NCBI RefSeq assembly: GCF_008806955.1 | Contig: NZ_CP031727.1 | Location: 434,001-498,000, forward strand | Length of the DNA: 64,000 bases | From: Cellvibrio sp. KY-YJ-3 | GTDB taxonomy: Bacteria; Pseudomonadota; Gammaproteobacteria; Pseudomonadales; Cellvibrionaceae | Direction of reading: 5' to 3' | Part shown: one piece after another, positions 4,026-56,716 of the stretch | Layout: each line of letters begins with the position of its first letter | How positions within the stretch are numbered: position 1 is the first letter of the stretch | The notes under the pieces: model-generated | What the model saw: only the letters and a program-made list of their open reading frames with translations | Databases searched by the model: none | What the model was told of the DNA's origin: nothing | Program-made: the position numbers and the translations under genes

Positions 4026-5300
4026 ATGACTTTATTTGCTGAATACGGCCATGTGCTGTTTATTCTTGCCTGTGCTTTTGGCCTCTTTATGGCATGGGGC
4101 ATAGGTGCCAATGATGTATCCAACGCAATGGGAACCTCGGTTGGCTCGCGTGCGCTTACCATGAAACAGGCCATTTTAATTGCCATGGTATTTGAGTTTG
4201 CCGGGGCCTACCTAGCTGGTGGTGAAGTGACAGAAACCATCCGTAGCGGGATTGTTGAACTGGACGTGATGACCGACCACCCGGATTTATTTGTCTTCGG
4301 CATGCTCGCCTCGCTGCTAGCAGCGGGTAGCTGGTTATTAATCGCCAGTATTTTGGGCTGGCCGGTATCCACCACCCACTCGATTGTCGGCGCCATCATT
4401 GGTTTTGCCGCCGTGGGCATTTCCGCCGATGCGGTGCAGTGGAGCAAGGTGTGGGGCATCGTCGGCAGCTGGGTAATTACCCCCGTTATTGCAGGCTTCC
4501 TCGCTTTCTGGATTTTCCGCTCAGTGCAATTCCTGATTCTGGACACAGAAGATCCGTTTTCCAATGCCAAACGCTACATACCCATTTATATGTTTGCGGT
4601 AGGTTTCTTTTTGTCGATGGTCACCATCCTCAAAGGCCTGAAATATGTACTTAGCTCACACAACCTTTCGTTTAGCTTTCTGGAAAGTACCTTTATAGCG
4701 GCTATTATCGGCCTCGTGGTAGCAGGCTTTGGGATGTACCTTCTCAGCCGCATTACCCAGGACAAGACAGCGGATAAAGACAACCGTTTCTCCAGTGTAG
4801 AGCGCGTGTTTGGGGTATTGATGATCTTCACTGCTTGTTCCATGGCATTTGCACACGGCTCCAACGATGTAGCCAACGCAGTGGGCCCTATGGCAGCGGT
4901 AATCAGTGTTGTTCAATCGGGTGAGGTGGGCGCCAAAGCCGCCGTCGCCCCATGGGTTCTGTTATTGGGTGGCGTTGGTATTGTTGTTGGCCTGGCAACC
5001 TATGGCTACAAGGTAATGCAAACCATTGGTAAAAAGATTACCGAACTCACCCCCAGCCGTGGTTTCGCCGCCGAAATGTCGGCAGCCGCCACCGTAGTCA
5101 TTGCATCCGGCCTCGGCCTGCCCATTTCTACCACTCACACTCTGGTGGGTGCGGTGCTGGGGGTAGGTTTGGCGCGCGGGATAGGAGCATTAAATTTACG
5201 GGTCATAGGCGGTATCTTCGCCTCTTGGGTTATTACCTTACCCGCCGGAGCAGGCCTGTCGATTCTGTTTTTCTACTTCCTAAAAGGCGTGTTCAGTTAA
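4026..5300 (+). CDS. PiT-family inorganic phosphate:cation symporter
   Basis: A 424-residue inner-membrane protein with about ten to twelve segments and the inverted duplication typical of PiT permeases: GANDVSNAMGTSVGSRALT near residue 27 and GSNDVANAVGPMAAV near residue 279, each followed later by a STTHS or STTHT motif. PiT proteins take up metal-phosphate complexes with protons or sodium at low affinity. The gene is second in an operon with the DUF47 protein, has GAGGAATT as ribosome site and ends at a strong hairpin. Confidence 0.93.
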   Translation: MTLFAEYGHVLFILACAFGLFMAWGIGANDVSNAMGTSVGSRALTMKQAILIAMVFEFAGAYLAGGEVTETIRSGIVELDVMTDHPDLFVFGMLASLLAAGSWLLIASILGWPVSTTHSIVGAIIGFAAVGISADAVQWSKVWGIVGSWVITPVIAGFLAFWIFRSVQFLILDTEDPFSNAKRYIPIYMFAVGFFLSMVTILKGLKYVLSSHNLSFSFLESTFIAAIIGLVVAGFGMYLLSRITQDKTADKDNRFSSVERVFGVLMIFTACSMAFAHGSNDVANAVGPMAAVISVVQSGEVGAKAAVAPWVLLLGGVGIVVGLATYGYKVMQTIGKKITELTPSRGFAAEMSAAATVVIASGLGLPISTTHTLVGAVLGVGLARGIGALNLRVIGGIFASWVITLPAGAGLSILFFYFLKGVFS

Positions 5301-5315
5301 GTCTCATTCCACCCC

Positions 5316-5351
5316 AAAAAACCCGAGCAGGGAAACCAGCTCGGGTTTTTT
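5316..5351 (+). terminator. Rho-independent terminator after the PiT gene
   Basis: The A-run and ACCCGAGC pair with GCTCGGGT and six T residues around the loop AGGGAAACCA. It ends the DUF47-PiT operon and separates it from argE. Confidence 0.88.
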
Positions 5352-5432
5352 ATTGCCTGGTGTTTTCCACAAGCTTGCATTTTCAGGCGCAATCATCGAT
5401 AACACCCCGAATGTTTTTCTGCGAGCAGGATC

Positions 5433-6587
5433 ATGACCGTCGACCTTAAACGCTATCAACATCGTCTGCACAGGCTTGTCGCCCTGCCTTCGGTGAGCTG
5501 CGCCATTGAACAGTGGGATATGTCCAATCAGGGCGTGATTGACCAACTTGCCAATGACTTTTCCGCACTGGGTTTTAATACCCGTATTATGCCGCTCACC
5601 CAAGCGGGTAAAGCTAATCTAATCGCAACGCTAGGCCAGGGCGATGGTGGCCTCGTCTTGGCAGGTCACAGCGATACAGTGCCCTACGATGCCAATCGCT
5701 GGCAGACTGATCCATTTCAGCTCACCGAGAAAGACGGCAAGCTTTATGGCCTTGGCGCCACCGATATGAAAGGATTTTTCCCGGTCATAATGGCTGCAGT
5801 AGAACCCTATCTTGCGCACCACTTCAAACACCCGCTTATTGTGCTAGCAACGGCGGATGAAGAGAGCAGCATGAGTGGCGCCCGCGCATTGGCACAACAG
5901 GGGCTCGGTGGTCTCTCGCCCCGCTATGCCGTTATTGGCGAACCCACTAATCTCATCCCCATCCGCGCCCACAAGGGAATCATGATGGAAGCCGTGCGAG
6001 TGCGCGGCCAGAGCGGCCATTCATCAAACCCGGCGCTTGGCAACAACGCGCTGGAGGCGATGAATCAGGTAATGAACGAGCTGCTAAGCCTGCGGCAGGA
6101 GCTGCAAACCAAATATCGCAACCCCGCGTTTGCTGTGCAAACACCCACCTTGAATCTAGGTTGTATTCACGGTGGCGATGGCGCCAATCGCATTTGCGGT
6201 GAGTGCGAATTGCATTTTGATTTACGCCTGTTACCGGGCATGGATAACAACGAGCTGCGCGCCGCTATACAACAGCGTCTCACCCCTATCGCCGAATCGA
6301 GCGGAACCGATATAGTGTTCTCCTCATTATTTGAGGGCGTCGATCCATTTGGCGAAGATGAACAGAGCCTGTTGATAAAGACCTGTGCCGAGCTCACCGG
6401 CAATGCCAGCGATAGTGTTGCCTTTGCCACTGAGGCGCCGTTTATGCAGCAACTGGGAATGCAAACCGTCGTATTGGGCCCCGGCTCTATCAACCAGGCC
6501 CATCAACCCGACGAGTTCATACCACTTAATCAAATCGAACCGGCCGTAAAACTGGTTCGTGGCTTAATAGAGCGCTTTTGCTTGTAA
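5433..6587 (+). CDS. argE: Acetylornithine deacetylase ArgE
   Basis: A 384-residue M20-family dinuclear-zinc amidohydrolase that removes acetate from N2-acetylornithine in arginine synthesis. Visible metal and catalytic residues are H79 and D81 (AGHSDTVPYD), D111 (GATDMKG), E143-E144 (ADEESS) and a late histidine in SINQAHQPDE. The length matches E. coli ArgE (383). AGGA precedes the ATG. The stop lies 41 bp before argA, so the first and a later step of arginine synthesis are co-transcribed. Confidence 0.95.
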   Translation: MTVDLKRYQHRLHRLVALPSVSCAIEQWDMSNQGVIDQLANDFSALGFNTRIMPLTQAGKANLIATLGQGDGGLVLAGHSDTVPYDANRWQTDPFQLTEKDGKLYGLGATDMKGFFPVIMAAVEPYLAHHFKHPLIVLATADEESSMSGARALAQQGLGGLSPRYAVIGEPTNLIPIRAHKGIMMEAVRVRGQSGHSSNPALGNNALEAMNQVMNELLSLRQELQTKYRNPAFAVQTPTLNLGCIHGGDGANRICGECELHFDLRLLPGMDNNELRAAIQQRLTPIAESSGTDIVFSSLFEGVDPFGEDEQSLLIKTCAELTGNASDSVAFATEAPFMQQLGMQTVVLGPGSINQAHQPDEFIPLNQIEPAVKLVRGLIERFCL

Positions 6588-43135: not shown

Positions 43136-45544
43136 CTAGGGAATTAACAGGGAATTAAGAATTTTTTCAGCGGAAAAAACCAATGCGATTATCATTTCCT
43201 GTTCTATCTGCGATGCGGCTAACAACTTTTTTTGCAATTTTTGTTGCTCGCCCGCTGCCAATGTTTTACTGGTTAAACGCTGCTCCAACAGTGCAGCAGT
43301 AAGATCCACCAACCCATAGGTTTTTTCCGCAAACAGCATCAGTTCCGGATGCTGTTTTAATAGCGGCATAAGTCGCGCGCGATTCACTGACCAACGCTGT
43401 AATTGCGCTTGTAGCAACGCATAATCCTCACCCGCTACCGGGTTCATCAACCAGCGTGTCAGGCGCATATTAAATTGCCGCAGAGATTCGTTTTCAACCG
43501 GTAATGCATCCACAAGACGATTCAGTGGATCTGCCTTGGAATAGCTTTCATTGGCCGATTTTTCATGTTGCCGGTGGTAGTAATAAGCCGGCTGCAACAG
43601 TTCAATAAATGTCAGCGCGGGTGTAATTGCCTCGGTTCCAAATAATCGCTGCAGCGCTTGCTCGGTTTGCTTTCGATGCAACAAGCCTGTGGATTTTTCT
43701 GCCCAGTGGGCGACACTATTCATACGCACATACATTGCATTTTCATCTTGCAATTCCTGCGCCGACCAGAGGCGTTCGGCCACAACAAATGCGCGCGGCC
43801 AGAGCCGCAGGTCGATTGACTGCTCATCCACAATTTCTGCCCACAATGCCGCTTCGCCACCCAGAATTAATTTATGCTCCTGTGCACCGAGCGGAGTCAT
43901 TTTTTGCAATGCGGTTATCAATTGTAGTGCAATTTTTTTACCGCTCACCGGGTAAGGTGCGTTGCCTACTATTGCCCTGCCCTGCAATTCATCGCCCTTA
44001 AATTGCACGCGAAACTCTACCGGTCCCATCCAGGTATCCAGCGAAAACACGGCGGCACTTTTTGTCAATTTCTGAATCTTCACTGCACGACGCGACTTAC
44101 CGGAAAAATCGATAAAACCCTCGCGCTCATTAAGCAGTGTGAAACTACCAGTAACCGGATTGCCGCGTTTGCGTGGCAAGGAAAATGACCAGCTGGCAAT
44201 TTCTTCGCGCGCACTGTTGTTTTCGATCAGCGCAAGATTTTTATTGGTGTAAGGCGGCGGAGGCAAAGGATCATTGCGATAGTGATAAGCCGCGGATTGC
44301 GGCTGATCCAGATAATAACCCGTGGATAAAATCGCCTGAAAACCTGCCTCCACGGATTCGCTTACCGCATCCGGCCCACGCCAGGATTGAATCACTATGT
44401 CCTTGGGTAAAGTTTTGTGTTGTATTTCATCCCAGCCAATCATTTTGCGCTGGTGTTTGTGCAAAATGGTTTGCACCCGCTGATTAAAATAGGCCTGCAG
44501 CGCATAGCTATTTTTTAAATTGTTGGCCTGCATAAAGGCTTGAATGTCGGCGTTGTTATTCCAATGTTCCGGGTCTACCTCATCGCCGCCAATATGCAGG
44601 TATTCAAATGGAAATATGGCTTTGGCTTCTGCCACCAGTGCATCAACAAATTCATACGCCTTTTCATTGGCCGGATTGAGCGTGGGTTTATGCACGCCCC
44701 AACGATATTCCATCGCATAGGGGCCGGGTGCGGACATTAATTCCGGGTAGGCAACGGCAATAGCGCTGGCGTGCCCCGGCACATCAATTTCCGGCAATAC
44801 CTGAATGCCGCGCGCTTGTGCATAGGCCACGACCTCACGCATTTGTTTACGCGTATAAAACTGACCGTCCGACGCGAGCTGTTGTAATTTTGGATAGCGT
44901 TTGGATTCAAAGCGCCAGCCTTGGTCATCGGTTAAATGCCAGTGAAAAATATTGTATTTGGCCGCAGCCATCGCATCGATTTGTCGTTTGATCGTCTCTA
45001 CCGAGAAAAAATGGCGCGAAGTATCGAGTAACAAGCCGCGCCATTTAAAACGTGGGAAATCGTTAATGCTGACCTGTGGAATTTGAATCGTTTTTTCGCT
45101 TACACCCATTAACTGCAACAGGGTTTCCAAACCGCGCAGCACACCCAGATTTTGATTGGCACTGAGGTAGATTTTTTTATTATCGACCACCAACTGGTAG
45201 GACTCGTCCCATTCACTCATGCGTGGGGACATAGTGCGCGAATCTTTAATCGTGATAACCAATGTTGCTTTGGCGGCGGTGCTTTTTTTCCAGCGCAGTT
45301 TAATGCCGGTTTGTTGATAGCTGCGCTGTGCAAAACGCTTCAGTGCGTTGTTTAATTCAGCCGTAGATTTTCCGTCGATGGCAATCAACCAGTCACTGCC
45401 AAGCTGCAACTGCGGTTCACCTGCCGCCGGTATCAATTGTTGTGGATAAGGCATAAGCGGCAGCGACGGCGCATTGGCTACCGCCGCTAACGATGCCATC
45501 GTCGACAATATAAAACCAAAAACAAATAACAGCACACGGAACAT
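43136..45544 (-). CDS. GH20 beta-N-acetylhexosaminidase
   Basis: 802 residues with a signal peptide (cleavage near AVANA). GH20b N-terminal domain, then the barrel with LLLDTSRHFF, HWHLTDDQGWR, PEIDVPGHASA and the catalytic pair D321-E322 in LHIGGDEVDPEHW, used for substrate-assisted hydrolysis of GlcNAc or GalNAc ends. A 150-residue beta insert after the glutamate region and a C-terminal helical part follow. Last gene of the D-amino-acid operon (16 bp after RidA), so it may free amino sugars from chitin or peptidoglycan fragments. Confidence 0.92.
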   Translation of the reverse strand: MFRVLLFVFGFILSTMASLAAVANAPSLPLMPYPQQLIPAAGEPQLQLGSDWLIAIDGKSTAELNNALKRFAQRSYQQTGIKLRWKKSTAAKATLVITIKDSRTMSPRMSEWDESYQLVVDNKKIYLSANQNLGVLRGLETLLQLMGVSEKTIQIPQVSINDFPRFKWRGLLLDTSRHFFSVETIKRQIDAMAAAKYNIFHWHLTDDQGWRFESKRYPKLQQLASDGQFYTRKQMREVVAYAQARGIQVLPEIDVPGHASAIAVAYPELMSAPGPYAMEYRWGVHKPTLNPANEKAYEFVDALVAEAKAIFPFEYLHIGGDEVDPEHWNNNADIQAFMQANNLKNSYALQAYFNQRVQTILHKHQRKMIGWDEIQHKTLPKDIVIQSWRGPDAVSESVEAGFQAILSTGYYLDQPQSAAYHYRNDPLPPPPYTNKNLALIENNSAREEIASWSFSLPRKRGNPVTGSFTLLNEREGFIDFSGKSRRAVKIQKLTKSAAVFSLDTWMGPVEFRVQFKGDELQGRAIVGNAPYPVSGKKIALQLITALQKMTPLGAQEHKLILGGEAALWAEIVDEQSIDLRLWPRAFVVAERLWSAQELQDENAMYVRMNSVAHWAEKSTGLLHRKQTEQALQRLFGTEAITPALTFIELLQPAYYYHRQHEKSANESYSKADPLNRLVDALPVENESLRQFNMRLTRWLMNPVAGEDYALLQAQLQRWSVNRARLMPLLKQHPELMLFAEKTYGLVDLTAALLEQRLTSKTLAAGEQQKLQKKLLAASQIEQEMIIALVFSAEKILNSLLIP

Positions 45545-51190: not shown

Positions 51191-51491
51191 ATTATTTTTT
51201 TGCCAATAGCAGAAAAATCGAGCGTTTTTACAAGGATAACAGCAAAAATGCGCCATGTTAAGAAAATTATTTACAAAAAGACATTTTTGCTTGAAAACTT
51301 CTTTCAGGGTTTTGCCTACCGGGATTCCCTTGTTTAGCCCCCCACCCCCTCCTCATTTGCTTCCCGCATCAAATATTTTTTTCAGGTTCGGGAATAAAAA
51401 TAACTCCCCCCGCGTTAACAGGTTGCAAGTCGACGAAAACGGGCTGCAGCGCAACCCGCTTTCAAACCCTGAAACGAATGAGGACATCACC
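51191..51491. other. 301-bp divergent intergenic region
   Basis: Lies between the deaminase operon (minus) and the tetrapeptide-repeat gene (plus), so it holds both promoters. AT-rich near 51250-51310. No clear operator was recognised. Confidence 0.5.
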
Positions 51492-52307
51492 ATGAACAAA
51501 CACACTTTATTGATTGCTGCTTGCACCCTGGCCTCCAGCGTTTGCTGGGCACAAGACGCGTCATTAGCCGTAGAGACAAGCGCCAACACCCAGACCGCAG
51601 CGGATGCTCGCCTCTCTGCCCAAGGAGGCACATTGAGCGCCGGTTTTGGGTTGCAACAAAATGCCAGCCCAGCGACCAGCACTAATGCCAACAGCGACGC
51701 AACTGACAGCGACGCAGAAGCGGAGCAAAACAACACCGACCAAGCCAATGCCGGAACAGAAACCGCCGGCGCAATTTCTGCAGCAGCGACCGGCAATGCA
51801 GCAGTGGACGCACAGGCAGTGCTCACCCCCATCGGCCAACAGGCAAACCAATTGTTGGAGCGCGGGGCGGCGGCACAGGAAAACCTCTCGGCCAATCTCT
51901 CCGCCACTGTGAATGCCACCAGCACCGCCACCAACGGCGCGATTAACCAGCAGCTGAACTCAGCCCAGCAGTTGGTTGCCGATAGCAACCTACAAGGTTC
52001 GGCAGAACAGCTGGTTAGCGGTTCGGTAGATAGCTCGTTAGATAGCGTGGTAAATGGCTCGGTCACTGGCTCAGTGAACGGCTTGGTAGATGGGGCGATA
52101 AGTGGTTCTGTAGAACAATTGGTAACTGGCTCGGTTCAACAGTCCGTCAGCGGCTCAGTCGAGCAAGCGATTGGCAGTTCGGTAAACACAGCGGTAGAAG
52201 GCGCCATCAACAACAGCATCGCTGCGAGCATTCAGGACACTGTGGATAGCACCGTGAATAACAATATCAGTGCGGCCTTAACCGACAGCTTGAACCTCGG
52301 TTTGTAA
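51492..52307 (+). CDS. Secreted protein ending in 25 tetrapeptide repeats
   Basis: 271 residues. Signal peptide MNKHTLLIAACTLASSVCWA (cleavage before QD). Residues 22-170 are low-complexity, rich in Ala, Asn, Ser, Thr and Gln. From residue 172 to the last residue (271) the chain is exactly 25 four-residue units, each ending in an aliphatic residue (V, I or L), for example EQLV SGSV DSSL DSVV NGSV TGSV NGLV; Gly, Ser, Asn and Asp fill the others. No cysteine follows the signal peptide. No family recognised. The start has no strong ribosome site; the open frame back to 51255 is a random extension. It is followed by its own terminator, then an outer-membrane barrel gene. Confidence 0.75.
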   Translation: MNKHTLLIAACTLASSVCWAQDASLAVETSANTQTAADARLSAQGGTLSAGFGLQQNASPATSTNANSDATDSDAEAEQNNTDQANAGTETAGAISAAATGNAAVDAQAVLTPIGQQANQLLERGAAAQENLSANLSATVNATSTATNGAINQQLNSAQQLVADSNLQGSAEQLVSGSVDSSLDSVVNGSVTGSVNGLVDGAISGSVEQLVTGSVQQSVSGSVEQAIGSSVNTAVEGAINNSIAASIQDTVDSTVNNNISAALTDSLNLGL

Positions 52308-52360: not shown

Positions 52361-53293
52361 ATGAACCCACGCAGTGATAAACAACTGATTTTTAGCCTTG
52401 GCCGTTTGCTTATCAGCCCTTTAGTCATCGCCCTCTATAGCATTGCCGCCCATGGGGCCAACAAGCTGGACGTGGAGCTGGAAAGCGGCGCCGAATACGA
52501 TTCCAATTTGGCGGTCGTTGAGCTTGACCAATACTCCAGCGCCGGCGACTGGGCATTGCTGGCTAATGCGCGCGTAAATGCCCAGTGGCAGGCGACACCC
52601 AAGGCGATGTTTAAAGCCGGTGCCAGCTACAACAGCAAAACCTATCAAGACCTGAGCGCGTTTGACCTTGGCATCCAACAACTATTTGCCGATGCCAGTT
52701 ATGAACTGCCGCTGTTCAAGCTGGGCTTGAGCTATCACCAGGCCGACGCCGCGCTGGACGGCACCGATTTTTTAACCCTGCGCCAGCACAGTGTTTACCT
52801 GTCGCGCCTGTTCAACCAGCGCACTTTTGTGCGCGGGGCGGTGAATTATCAGGACAAGGATTTTCCCACCAGTGCCGAGCGCAATGCGCACAACCTGGGT
52901 ATGGCGGGCGATGTGTTTGTGTTTTTTAACCAGGGCACCACCTTTGTGGCATTTGGCTTGAATCACGAACGCGAGAACGCCGCCAGCGATCCGTTTGATT
53001 TGACCGCCACCAGCGTAAAAACCAGCATTAATCACCAGTTCCCCGCCTGGGGCAAAAAGACCAAGCTGCAACTGGGCTGGCGTTATGAACAGCGCGATTA
53101 TTCGGCCATCACCCCGGCGTTGGAAGCCAAGCGCGACGATACCCGGCAGGTGGTAAATCTGGAATGGCAGATCAATACCCATGATTGGTTGGCGTTGGTG
53201 GGCAAGTTGGAACGGGGCGATTATCAATCCAACCTGCGCAGTGCGGACTATTCCGAAACCCGCGCCTCACTCACGTTAAAAGCCAGCTTTTAA
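52361..53293 (+). CDS. Outer-membrane beta-barrel protein (DUF560/surface lipoprotein assembly modifier-like)
   Basis: 310 residues. A signal-like N-terminus (residues 10-33 hydrophobic, AAHGA) is followed by about fourteen amphipathic strands with alternating hydrophobics such as LDVELESGAEYDSNLAVV and TKLQLGWRYEQRDYSAI, and a C-terminal SLTLKASF with the terminal phenylalanine needed for BAM insertion. This is the barrel half of DUF560/Slam-like proteins without the N-terminal TPR region. Its stop overlaps that of the convergent S8 protease gene. Proposed partner of the repeat protein upstream, not proven. Confidence 0.75.
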   Translation: MNPRSDKQLIFSLGRLLISPLVIALYSIAAHGANKLDVELESGAEYDSNLAVVELDQYSSAGDWALLANARVNAQWQATPKAMFKAGASYNSKTYQDLSAFDLGIQQLFADASYELPLFKLGLSYHQADAALDGTDFLTLRQHSVYLSRLFNQRTFVRGAVNYQDKDFPTSAERNAHNLGMAGDVFVFFNQGTTFVAFGLNHERENAASDPFDLTATSVKTSINHQFPAWGKKTKLQLGWRYEQRDYSAITPALEAKRDDTRQVVNLEWQINTHDWLALVGKLERGDYQSNLRSADYSETRASLTLKASF

Positions 53294-54702
53294 GGGCGCT
53301 GCAATTGGCCGTGACCAAATATCGGGTCGCGGCCCGGTGCACCCAAATCCTGCGCACGCTTGATTAATTGCGCCATCACCCCCGAGGCAGGAGTAGTTGC
53401 CAGCTCGCAAGCAAGCAATGCCGAGACCAGCGGCGCCGCCATAGAAGTTCCACTTTCACGGCCATAACCACCCGCACTGCGCGCGGTGATCACCGACACC
53501 CCCAGCGCGGCAAAAGCGATATGTTCCCCCCGATTGGCCCAGCGATAAGGGCGCTGTTGTTGATCCACCGCGGTCACTGCAATCACTCCCTTATAGGCGG
53601 CCGGATACAAGGGTGGCGCGGCTGGCCCCTCGTTACCCACTGCCGCCACCACCAGACTGCCAGATTCAATAACTCGCTCAATTACCTGCGCCAGAATGCT
53701 GTTGTCCGGGCCGGTCAGGCTCATATTAATCACCGGCACTTTTTGTTCTATCAGCCAATTCAAGGCACGCACCAGATTCATCATGGTGGCGCCCTGGGTG
53801 TAATCATTGCGCGGGTAAAATACCGAGGCCGCATAGAGTGTTGCACCCGGCAGAAGCGGTTGCAGCTCATCGCCTTTGCCTCCTGTCCCTGTTCCAACCA
53901 ACAGCCCCGCCACCGCTGTGCCGTGGGCTTTGGGCGATTCGATATCGGCCCCGATAAAATCCTGCTGCCGGATTTTTACCCCGGCAAACGCGGGATGCGT
54001 GCTATCAATCGCGGTATCGATCATGCCGATAGACAAGTCATCAACACAGGCCGGAGCCTGAGGTGGCAATGTGGATGATATGGGTGATGAAGCGGGTTGC
54101 GAGGACTGAGGGGCAGCAGTTTGGGGCGAATAGATATGATTGCGATCCAACTGCGGATGCAAACTGGCGGGCAAGCGCTGGCGCAGCGCGGCGCGGGAAT
54201 CCAGAGCGGCGGGCACACGAAAGCGCACCAGTTGCAGCCCCAACCCGGCAAATTGGGTCTGCTCAATGATTTCAACATCAAGCTTGGACAACTCCGCCAA
54301 CGCAGTTGGGTCGAGCAATAACAGCCATTCGCGCTCCACGGCGCGCCAGCCATCTTCCACTTTGACATCCACCAACACCGTGGCACCACGGCGATCAACA
54401 ATCGGCAGCACCGCCGTTAGTAAGTCGGGCACCAGTGCGGTTGTTTTGGCGAGGGCGGCATCGACCGGTTGTATCAAGGCGTCGCGCAATACCGACTCCT
54501 CCAGTAAATCCTTCTGTACCGATTCCTGCACCTGGCGGACTGTGTCATCCAGCTCCCGCGTTACACCGTCCAGTGTGGTATCCACCGGCAGGCGCTCCAA
54601 CAATTGGGCAGCAACCGGCTGGCACAGGCAGGCGAGCACAAGACTGCTGCAGGCAATACGCAAACAACCAAGACGTAAATGACGGCGGTAAAAAGGTTTC
54701 AT
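53290..54702 (-). CDS. Secreted S8 (subtilisin-family) serine protease
   Basis: 470 residues. Signal peptide ending near PVAAQ (about 33), an N-terminal domain (60-200, possible inhibitor/prodomain), a Ser/Pro linker, then the subtilase domain with the triad D229 (SIGMIDTAIDS), H260 (KAHGTAVAGLL) and S420 (GTSMAAPLVSALL) and the oxyanion Asn region (VAAVGNEGP). It is divergent from an ECF sigma gene, which suggests regulation by, or a role in, the sigma/anti-sigma pathway. The start at 54702 has GGTGA upstream; an upstream start at 54741 adds 13 residues. Confidence 0.9.
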   Translation of the reverse strand: MKPFYRRHLRLGCLRIACSSLVLACLCQPVAAQLLERLPVDTTLDGVTRELDDTVRQVQESVQKDLLEESVLRDALIQPVDAALAKTTALVPDLLTAVLPIVDRRGATVLVDVKVEDGWRAVEREWLLLLDPTALAELSKLDVEIIEQTQFAGLGLQLVRFRVPAALDSRAALRQRLPASLHPQLDRNHIYSPQTAAPQSSQPASSPISSTLPPQAPACVDDLSIGMIDTAIDSTHPAFAGVKIRQQDFIGADIESPKAHGTAVAGLLVGTGTGGKGDELQPLLPGATLYAASVFYPRNDYTQGATMMNLVRALNWLIEQKVPVINMSLTGPDNSILAQVIERVIESGSLVVAAVGNEGPAAPPLYPAAYKGVIAVTAVDQQQRPYRWANRGEHIAFAALGVSVITARSAGGYGRESGTSMAAPLVSALLACELATTPASGVMAQLIKRAQDLGAPGRDPIFGHGQLQRP

Positions 54703-54904
54703 TGGGTCACCATGGCGTGTAATAGGGTAAATTAACCACAAAAAATGGCTGGGTTCATTACCTGGTTAACGTTTGCGGGGAATAAAAATTCCAAAAATAA
54801 TCACTGGGATGGGAATAAAACCAACAGCGGGCCGTTTACTGGATAAGAGCACCAAAAACTACTCCTCAAACGAGCCCCCAACACCAGACCTGAAATCAGC
54901 GCCT

Positions 54905-55426
54905 ATGAAGACCGACACCAGTATCGCCATGAAACAGGAATTAACCCAACTCGCGCCCGCCTTACGGCGTTTTGCCTACTCGCTCACCGGTTCCCCCGCC
55001 GATGCCGATGACTTATTGCAAAATACCCTGGAGCGATTGCTGAGCCGTGGTGTACCCGAGGATATTGAACTGGCCAAATGGGCCTTTCGTGTATGCCGCA
55101 ATATTTGGATTGATGAGTACCGCGCGCGCAAGGTTCGCCAGCACCTTAACTACGCCATTGAGGACAGCGAGGAGCCGGTGGCCGATGGCGCACAAGCCAT
55201 TGAAGACCAGATCGCCCTGACGGAGGTAGATGCCGCGATGCAGCAGTTGCCCGACGACCAGCGCACGATTATTTCGCTGGTGGCGCTGGAGGGTATGTCC
55301 TACAAGGAGGTGGCCGACACCCTGAGCATTCCCACCGGCACGGTGATGAGCCGCTTAGCGCGGGCGCGTATCGCGCTGAGCCGATTTTTAAATCCCGAAC
55401 AACCGCCCGCCGCTGAAGGCGCGTGA
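54905..55426 (+). CDS. ECF-family RNA polymerase sigma factor
   Basis: 173 residues: region 2 (LRRFAYSLTGSPADADDLLQNTLERLL, FRVCRNIWIDEYRARKVR) and region 4 (LPDDQRTIISLVALEGMSYKEVADTLSIPTGTVMSRLARARIALS). Start taken at the ATG at 54905; a TTG at 54773 would add 44 residues of no similarity and an ATG at 54929 is also possible. The stop is 10 bp before the anti-sigma gene. Signal not known; divergent with the S8 protease gene. Confidence 0.92.
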   Translation: MKTDTSIAMKQELTQLAPALRRFAYSLTGSPADADDLLQNTLERLLSRGVPEDIELAKWAFRVCRNIWIDEYRARKVRQHLNYAIEDSEEPVADGAQAIEDQIALTEVDAAMQQLPDDQRTIISLVALEGMSYKEVADTLSIPTGTVMSRLARARIALSRFLNPEQPPAAEGA

Positions 55427-56189: not shown

Positions 56190-56230
56190 CCACCGGCGCT
56201 CCGCTCGCCAAGCACAGGAGATTGGCAAGA

Positions 56231-56716
56231 ATGAAATCACTGATTGCGTTGTGTTTACTGGTATTTCTCACTGGCTGCGCCAGTCAACAACATCAACAGC
56301 ACCGCCACTATCACCCGGCCAAGGGCGATGGCACTGGCTATAAGGAACTGGCGCTGAGCGAAACCCACTACCGCGTGCAGTTCAAGTTGCGCGGCCAACA
56401 GCGCGCTACTGCCGAGCGCTATGCACTGCGGCGCGCCGCTGAACTGACATTGCAACAGGGTTACGACTGGTTTGTGGTAATTAAAAAGACCCAGCGCCGG
56501 TTGGAGGACGAACCCGCGTTTCCCGCCCGCCGCGAGGCCATCACCCAACGCCACTGTGGTCTGCTCGGCTGCCGCAGTACCCGCTATGCGCGGCCGGATG
56601 AAGACCCGTTCGATGAGGAGGCTTACACCCTGGTACTGCTGGAAATCCAAATGGGGCGCGGCGTGCGCCCGGAGAAAAACAGCTACGACGCCGAAACCAC
56701 CCGAACCATTATTTAG
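56231..56716 (+). CDS. CC0125/CC1285-family lipoprotein
   Basis: 161 residues, signal peptide with lipobox FLTGC (C16). The central segment GYKELALSETHYRVQFKL...RAAELTLQQGYDWFVV fits the CC0125/CC1285 family of small lipoproteins first noted in Caulobacter, of unknown role. AGGAG lies ten bases before the ATG. It follows the anti-sigma gene by 41 bp, so it is likely the third gene of the sigma operon, and its end overlaps the convergent SMP-30 gene by 8 bp. Confidence 0.82.
   Translation: MKSLIALCLLVFLTGCASQQHQQHRHYHPAKGDGTGYKELALSETHYRVQFKLRGQQRATAERYALRRAAELTLQQGYDWFVVIKKTQRRLEDEPAFPARREAITQRHCGLLGCRSTRYARPDEDPFDEEAYTLVLLEIQMGRGVRPEKNSYDAETTRTII

Follow-up and report, generated by a model that had tools for sequence, protein, structure and literature searches.

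What is formed by a secreted protein in which an aliphatic residue returns at every fourth position along its tail, and with which neighbours does such a protein work? The question arises from a gene of Cellvibrio sp. KY-YJ-3 lying in a 64,000-nucleotide stretch of contig NZ_CP031727.1 (positions 434,001 to 498,000; hereafter the window), whose product, here called the rod protein, is encoded directly upstream of a predicted outer-membrane barrel (Table 1). The rod protein belongs to an outer-membrane gene set that has been little described and whose members seem to be co-regulated. Within this set, the exchange of a free rod for an arm on a protease, combined with a shared promoter-like sequence, provides a concrete hypothesis for this gammaproteobacterial locus.

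Table 1. Features of the rod-barrel locus (window coordinates)
Feature	Position	Strand	Basis
Candidate ECF-type promoter of the rod-barrel operon, GGAATA-N16-CGTT	51391..51416	+	Pattern match
Secreted rod protein, 271 aa (P0001)	51492..52307	+	ORF; likely Sec signal peptide, period-4 tail
Period-4 tract, residues 175-271	52014..52304	+	25 consecutive V/I/L at step 4
Outer-membrane barrel, 310 aa, 14 predicted strands	52361..53293	+	Partial EpsL similarity, structure model
Secreted S8 subtilisin-like protease (P0003)	53290..54702	-	Pfam PF00082, catalytic triad
Candidate ECF-type promoter facing S8	54769..54792	-	Pattern match
Candidate ECF-type promoter facing sigma	54812..54836	+	Pattern match
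ECF sigma factor	54905..55426	+	Sigma70 regions 2 and 4 above cut-off
Putative anti-sigma factor, 250 aa	55437..56189	+	Position and weak profile matches only
CC0125/CC1285-family lipoprotein	56222..56716	+	NF047637, 110.7 bits (cut-off 40)

The four-residue tract

Residues 1-20 of the rod protein probably constitute a Sec signal peptide, as judged by eye, and the middle region is of low complexity. The original prediction, made from the sequence alone, described the last 100 residues as 25 exact tetrapeptide units with no off-period residue. The 25 V/I/L residues do follow one another unbroken at step 4, but they make up 24 complete units with a final Leu after them, and four aliphatic residues (V186, L198, L210 and L269) lie out of register. 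The longest V/I/L run in the tail is 25 at step 4 versus 2-3 at steps 2, 3, 5, 6 and 7, and the longest step-4 run in 20,000 shuffles of the tail was 10; a chance origin was rejected by these shuffle tests. In a background set of 71 sequences (the window and 70 loci, with rod and S8 genes excluded), two of the 822 ORFs that reached 100 aa carried a step-4 run of at least nine, both in one stretch of locus L081, where they represent a similar acidic S8 gene and its antisense frame.

Phase 1 of the tract is occupied by V (15), I (6) and L (4), phase 3 by Gly in 9 of the 24 units, and phase 4 by Ser in 12 and Ala in five. At the protein level 22 of the 24 units are distinct. The predicted difference in codons between units was borne out, since the DNA of all 24 is unlike each other (mean pairwise identity 0.42), and recent tandem duplication in the window was therefore rejected. 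The rod protein had no Pfam match above cut-off and no NCBIfam match, and a Pfam search with 18 rod homologues returned four scattered families, the best being DUF826 (two members, E 1.8e-4). The literature on tetrapeptide and four-residue periodicity, covered for part by title, yielded a paper on Sac3 and nothing on the window's rod protein.

The barrel, protease and sigma factor genes

The AlphaFold model of the barrel, based on an alignment of 16 sequences, has 14 strands and mostly short loops (pLDDT 90.5, pTM 0.81). Foldseek returned many porins at low identity; the best structural matches were ordinary porins, and OmpG and CymA, which have 14 strands each, lay near TM 0.6. Neither a POTRA domain nor a plug was found in the 310-aa model, and the barrel as modelled carries no mark of an export channel. 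It partially matches the EpsL profile TIGR03014 (E 3e-11) and TIGR03016 (E 1.5e-4), which likewise describe outer-membrane barrels, and could on this ground be an EpsL-like polysaccharide exporter with the rod as an accessory. However, the EpsL score of 42.8 bits is far under the curated cut-off of 275, so that membership was rejected, and inspection by eye of the ORFs of at least 90 aa between positions 44000 and 60000 recognised no polysaccharide synthesis gene or exopolysaccharide setting; we consider such an exporter very unlikely.

The original prediction overlooked the S8 protease, the promoters of the ECF sigma factor and the location of the tract on the protease in relatives. P0003 belongs to Peptidase S8 (PF00082, 120 bits, cut-off 21.8), and its catalytic triad, assigned by motif as D242, H273 and S433, is invariant in 19 of 19 aligned sequences. 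An autotransporter protease was rejected, because protease and barrel are encoded by separate genes and not as one chain. The start Met of the sigma factor is at 54905 or 54929, within a longer TTG-initiated ORF that begins at 54773. The putative anti-sigma factor has one membrane span by eye and weak matches to zf-HC2 (E 0.007) and to an NCBIfam antisigma family (E 0.06).

Conservation and distribution

The period was assessed in relatives by defining the rod gene as the ORF directly upstream of the barrel, with no use of the period in the choice. The Fourier peak of the last 70 residues fell at 3.98-4.02 in 33 of the 36 separate rods (window included), the exceptions being L099, L100 and L102. 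Rods of Catenovulum and Gayadomonas peaked at 3.86-3.90 over this length, and the two Catenovulum rods had runs of 22 and 16 farther up the protein. In an enlarged set, 32 of 43 rods carried a step-4 V/I/L run of at least nine, and 39 did so with Ala allowed. It is the period that is conserved in the rods, not the composition. According to the original prediction, absence of the pattern in orthologues would count against the tract's novelty; its retention in nearly all separate rods supports the proposal that the tract is ancient and maintained by selection.

Most of the fetched loci contained, in this order, the rod-barrel pair, a convergent S8 gene, the sigma and anti-sigma genes and often a CC0125-type lipoprotein gene. 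The linkage of rod and barrel in this set is partly by construction, because most loci were gathered via the barrel, and near-copies (e.g. L064/L065 and L075/L076) were counted apart. Independently of the barrel, a single-sequence search with the rod covered 144 genomes of the family and matched 18 of them. The match was in a rod gene adjoining a barrel in 14 genomes, in the cluster's S8 arm in two (G037 and G039), and elsewhere in two (G005 and G130) where no barrel match was found. The window's own genome, a single contig of 4.49 Mb, gave one match to the rod protein. The suggested partnership with the neighbouring barrel finds support in the conserved placement of the two genes across loci. 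The barrel was present in 35 of the 144 family genomes. In wider samples, its profile matched 35 of 293 genomes from the order and 13 of 369 from the class; the counts take in the window's genome and some partial matches. Relatives include Marinobacter, Idiomarina, Catenovulum and Gayadomonas.

Other arrangements also occur. Five loci (L066, L068, L099, L100 and L147) had the rod-barrel pair with neither S8 nor sigma in the stretch examined and kept the promoter motif described below, and five more (L164-L166, L168 and L170) had a barrel match with neither an S8 nor a sigma match and with no period-4 rod upstream. In L159, L161, L162, L163 and L173, which belong to a separate S8 branch, a different protein of 454-472 aa with a lipoprotein-like start (by eye) is encoded upstream of the barrel. 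In L070 (2311-3513) and L077 (1744-2979), where a separate rod is absent, a second protein that resembles a porin by eye is encoded upstream of the barrel.

Exchange between a separate rod and a protease arm

In part of the loci the periodic tract lies on the S8 protease itself. Of the 20 loci with no separate rod in the examined stretch, 14 carried a strong S8 tract (step-4 power of at least 15), versus 2 of the 37 with one. L081 is a further fused S8 outside this comparison, from which L082 is also absent, and L080 was classed as having no separate rod, where the genome may carry one on another contig. Both a separate rod and a strong S8 tract were missing from six of the 57 S8 loci (L159-L163 and L173). 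The S8 tracts are mostly acidic, lie between the signal peptide and the catalytic domain and reach 45 consecutive V/I/L at step 4 (L151 45, L171 44, L070 43, L077 41 and L158 40). In 27 of the 37 separate-rod loci, the window included, the S8 N-terminus failed to beat all of its own shuffles; that of the window is not clearly periodic, with 7 of 60 shuffles as high.

Of the 21 loci that lack a linked rod, 15 had their whole genomes searched with the separate-rod profile A2, the six loci with neither element being excluded. The profile matched in 13 of the 15 genomes, and in 11 all listed matches were inside the S8 gene of the cluster. The match in G133 was a phage baseplate spike, that in G004 a separate acidic protein at a contig edge, and G038 and G412 gave no A2 match genome-wide. 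The G004 protein (L204, 3-740) shows a period-4-like stretch and is cut by the contig end; the assembly may break in the repeat.

In a tree of the S8 catalytic domain, which covers 54 of the 57 loci (no catalytic motif start was recognised in L148, L160 and L172), one branch (support 99/92) contained 32 split and 3 both-type rows and another (100/100) the five rows with neither element. Fusion was defined here as at least 11 V/I/L/A/T at step 4, so the weak fused cases vary with the threshold. Because the split or fused label largely tracks the S8 tree, the loci represent few independent events; the exchange is real, but few evolutionary events underlie it. It links rod, protease and barrel. 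The rod and S8 arm of L092, in one genome, gave no significant alignment (E 0.43), while the window's rod and the same arm align at E 2e-8, to which common periodic composition may contribute. Other repeats were seen at S8 N-termini, with 10 and 12 consecutive V/I/L at step 5 in the Cellvibrio loci L058 (4830-6332) and L067 (5218-6729) and, by eye, an apparent nine-residue repeat in L064 (1621-3108).

Structure of the tract

The fold of the tract has two candidate solutions, which we rate about equal, a multimeric beta-fibre and a single long helix. Our estimates for the structural readings concern a different question from those for function; the two sets are not mutually exclusive and need not sum to one together.

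A trimeric fibre of the gp5 type, or another multimeric beta-fibre built from octads, has in our estimate close to an even chance of describing the tract. Residue identity is higher at lag 8 than at lag 4 both in the S8 arms (z +9.1 vs -1.4) and in the rods (z +3.7 vs +2.1), although in the acidic arms this may stem from octad duplication at the DNA level. Val is far commoner than Leu at phase 1 (53 vs 13% in rods and 55 vs 18% in S8, in a phase confined to V/I/L/A/T by the tract definition). Octapeptide repeats (VXGXXXXX in the gp5-type helix) build the beta-helix of the gp5/gpV/VgrG spikes of phages and type VI systems, which share with the window's tract Val/Ile at step 4, frequent Gly at phase 3 and an octad signal. 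In contrast to these spikes, the window's rod has no further spike or lysozyme domain in profile searches and is linked to a barrel and a protease, and its acidic relatives are glycine-poor. Across loci, Gly stands at phase 3 in 17% of units in rods and 3% in S8 tracts. The Glu/Ala/Gln-rich and Leu-only tracts fit such a fibre poorly.

According to the original prediction, a match to a known family would remove the novelty of the tract; residues 166-264 of P0001 do match PHROG 430 (baseplate hub/tail lysozyme) at E 8e-6, yet at E 0.01 this family was recovered by just 2 of 25 rods and 2 of 19 S8 proteins. The rod profile also picked up L207 (1135-1749), a phage baseplate assembly protein (PHROG 9992) with ten step-4 units when Thr is allowed and five with V/I/L alone. 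Searches against the PDB gave weak and mixed matches, among them gp5/VgrG spikes (E 0.12-5.5) and the pentameric delta fibre 5w82 (E 0.013-0.06), but the best was a low-complexity pyridoxal kinase (E 0.0015); with the whole-protein profile, the rod middle region matched ATP synthase b (E 0.007). Octads are known in gp5 (excerpt of PMC3004832) and in the beta-bracelet of the nematode-virus delta fibre, where a five-residue strand and a three-residue loop form an 8-residue unit (excerpt of PMC7565637). The delta fibre shares this unit length with the rod, and differs from it as a pentameric viral fibre whose consensus hydrophobic spacing, as given in that excerpt, is not that of the rod tract. 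The statement that the four-residue pattern is not a known solenoid was too strong, because the octad periodicity and the weak match to gp5-type spikes, which have a similar signature, favour a beta-fibre.

In opposition to a beta-fibre, AlphaFold predicts for the single chain one long helix from residue 171 to 268, with a pLDDT of about 45-67 (low confidence). The tract may accordingly be a long alpha-helix with a right-handed hydrophobic stripe gripped by a partner, in the way that Sus1 wraps the CID helix of Sac3, whose four-residue hydrophobic repeat winds right-handed (excerpt of PMC2726291); we regard this as plausible, if short of probable. Pro is scarce in the tracts (0.1% of 5726 residues; in rods 0.11% in the tract vs 1.41% before it), and helix formers occupy 83% of S8 phase 2. 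The precedent resembles the rod tract in its hydrophobic four-residue repeat and differs, by the same excerpt, in being eukaryotic, approximate and about 25 residues long per site. A helix would leave the octad signal unexplained, phase 1 is dominated by Val and not Leu, and an exact period of 4.00 exceeds the range of about 3.33-3.9 proposed for coiled coils, with a known extreme of 3.8 (excerpt of PMC4786415). A canonical coiled coil was rejected, since the period of 33 of the 36 rods lies outside this range. The low pLDDT and biased composition would also suit a disordered low-complexity linker without a fold, but the strict period survives changes of composition, which makes a linker highly improbable.

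Shared promoter-like sequences

A dyad search identified GGAAT ... CGT as common to the upstream regions of the rod and of S8/sigma, a pattern that we take to resemble the alphaproteobacterial EcfG promoter. With a spacer of 14 to 19 bases (GGAAT-N14..19-CGT), it was present upstream of all 39 rod genes, in all 50 regions towards sigma and in 43 of the 50 towards S8, compared with 2.9% of 2000 shuffled intergenic segments (one strand); its derivation drew on 26 rod and 23 S8 upstream stretches that are themselves among those counted, and the count allowed up to 100 bases into the flanking genes. In the window alone, a stricter pattern had two matches, a number equalled in 11 of 100 shuffles and not significant, and the motif was not enriched genome-wide over a reversed control (39 vs 50). 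The evidence for the promoters is their conservation at these places across loci. In the proposed model, the sigma factor of the locus would use these promoter-like sequences.

Proposed function

An exported or surface fibre system, as originally suggested, is still the leading reading. It builds on computed features, namely the gene cluster, the shared promoter-like sequence, the conserved period, the exchange between rod and arm, and the 14-strand prediction. The ECF sigma/anti-sigma pair would turn on three envelope proteins through one promoter type, and these would cooperate: the outer-membrane barrel with its 14 strands, a fibrous secreted rod with a tail periodicity of four, or more exactly eight, residues, and a subtilisin that is likewise secreted. 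The tract would be a rigid rod, bound by a barrel that may export or anchor it, and would be displayed at or through this barrel. The protease would act on the rod or, where the two are fused, the rod would carry and position the subtilisin. In the simplest reading, the barrel would handle the rod, the protease would be its client, its processor or both, and the sigma factor would turn all of them on. We give this sigma-controlled envelope system of rod, barrel and subtilisin, taken as a whole, an even chance of being correct.

The main functional rival is a signalling device, in which barrel, rod and protease would sense the state of the envelope and a putative cleavage of the anti-sigma factor by the protease, itself either released or retained by the rod, would free the sigma factor in a positive loop. 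The predicted targets of the sigma factor are its own promoter, that of S8 and that of the rod-barrel operon, and because the motif shows no genome-wide enrichment, the regulon may be confined to this locus. However, a regulon made up solely of its own sensor parts would serve no other purpose, and the rod-barrel pairs noted above exist with neither S8 nor sigma in the stretch examined; we hold such signalling to be fairly unlikely.

The locus might encode an undescribed envelope system, with the rod element either free or as a subtilisin arm beside a 14-stranded barrel under its own ECF sigma factor, and would then be a new type of bacterial surface fibre-protease machine with possibly a new fibrous fold; the rod element would keep its period of 4.00 and octad superstructure while its composition drifts between neutral, acidic and Gln/Arg-rich. 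We propose this only tentatively. A related arrangement in the literature on ECF sigma factors with S8 proteases is that of the ECF54-type loci, which according to an excerpt of PMC8999054 have subtilase genes in their context and are proposed to act without an anti-sigma factor. Like these loci, the window encodes a subtilase near an ECF sigma gene, and unlike those described in the excerpt it appears to have an anti-sigma factor. In L101, from an alphaproteobacterial MAG, the protein adjoining a related barrel (4352-5860) contains an Asp-rich stretch with a repeat of ~11 residues by eye.
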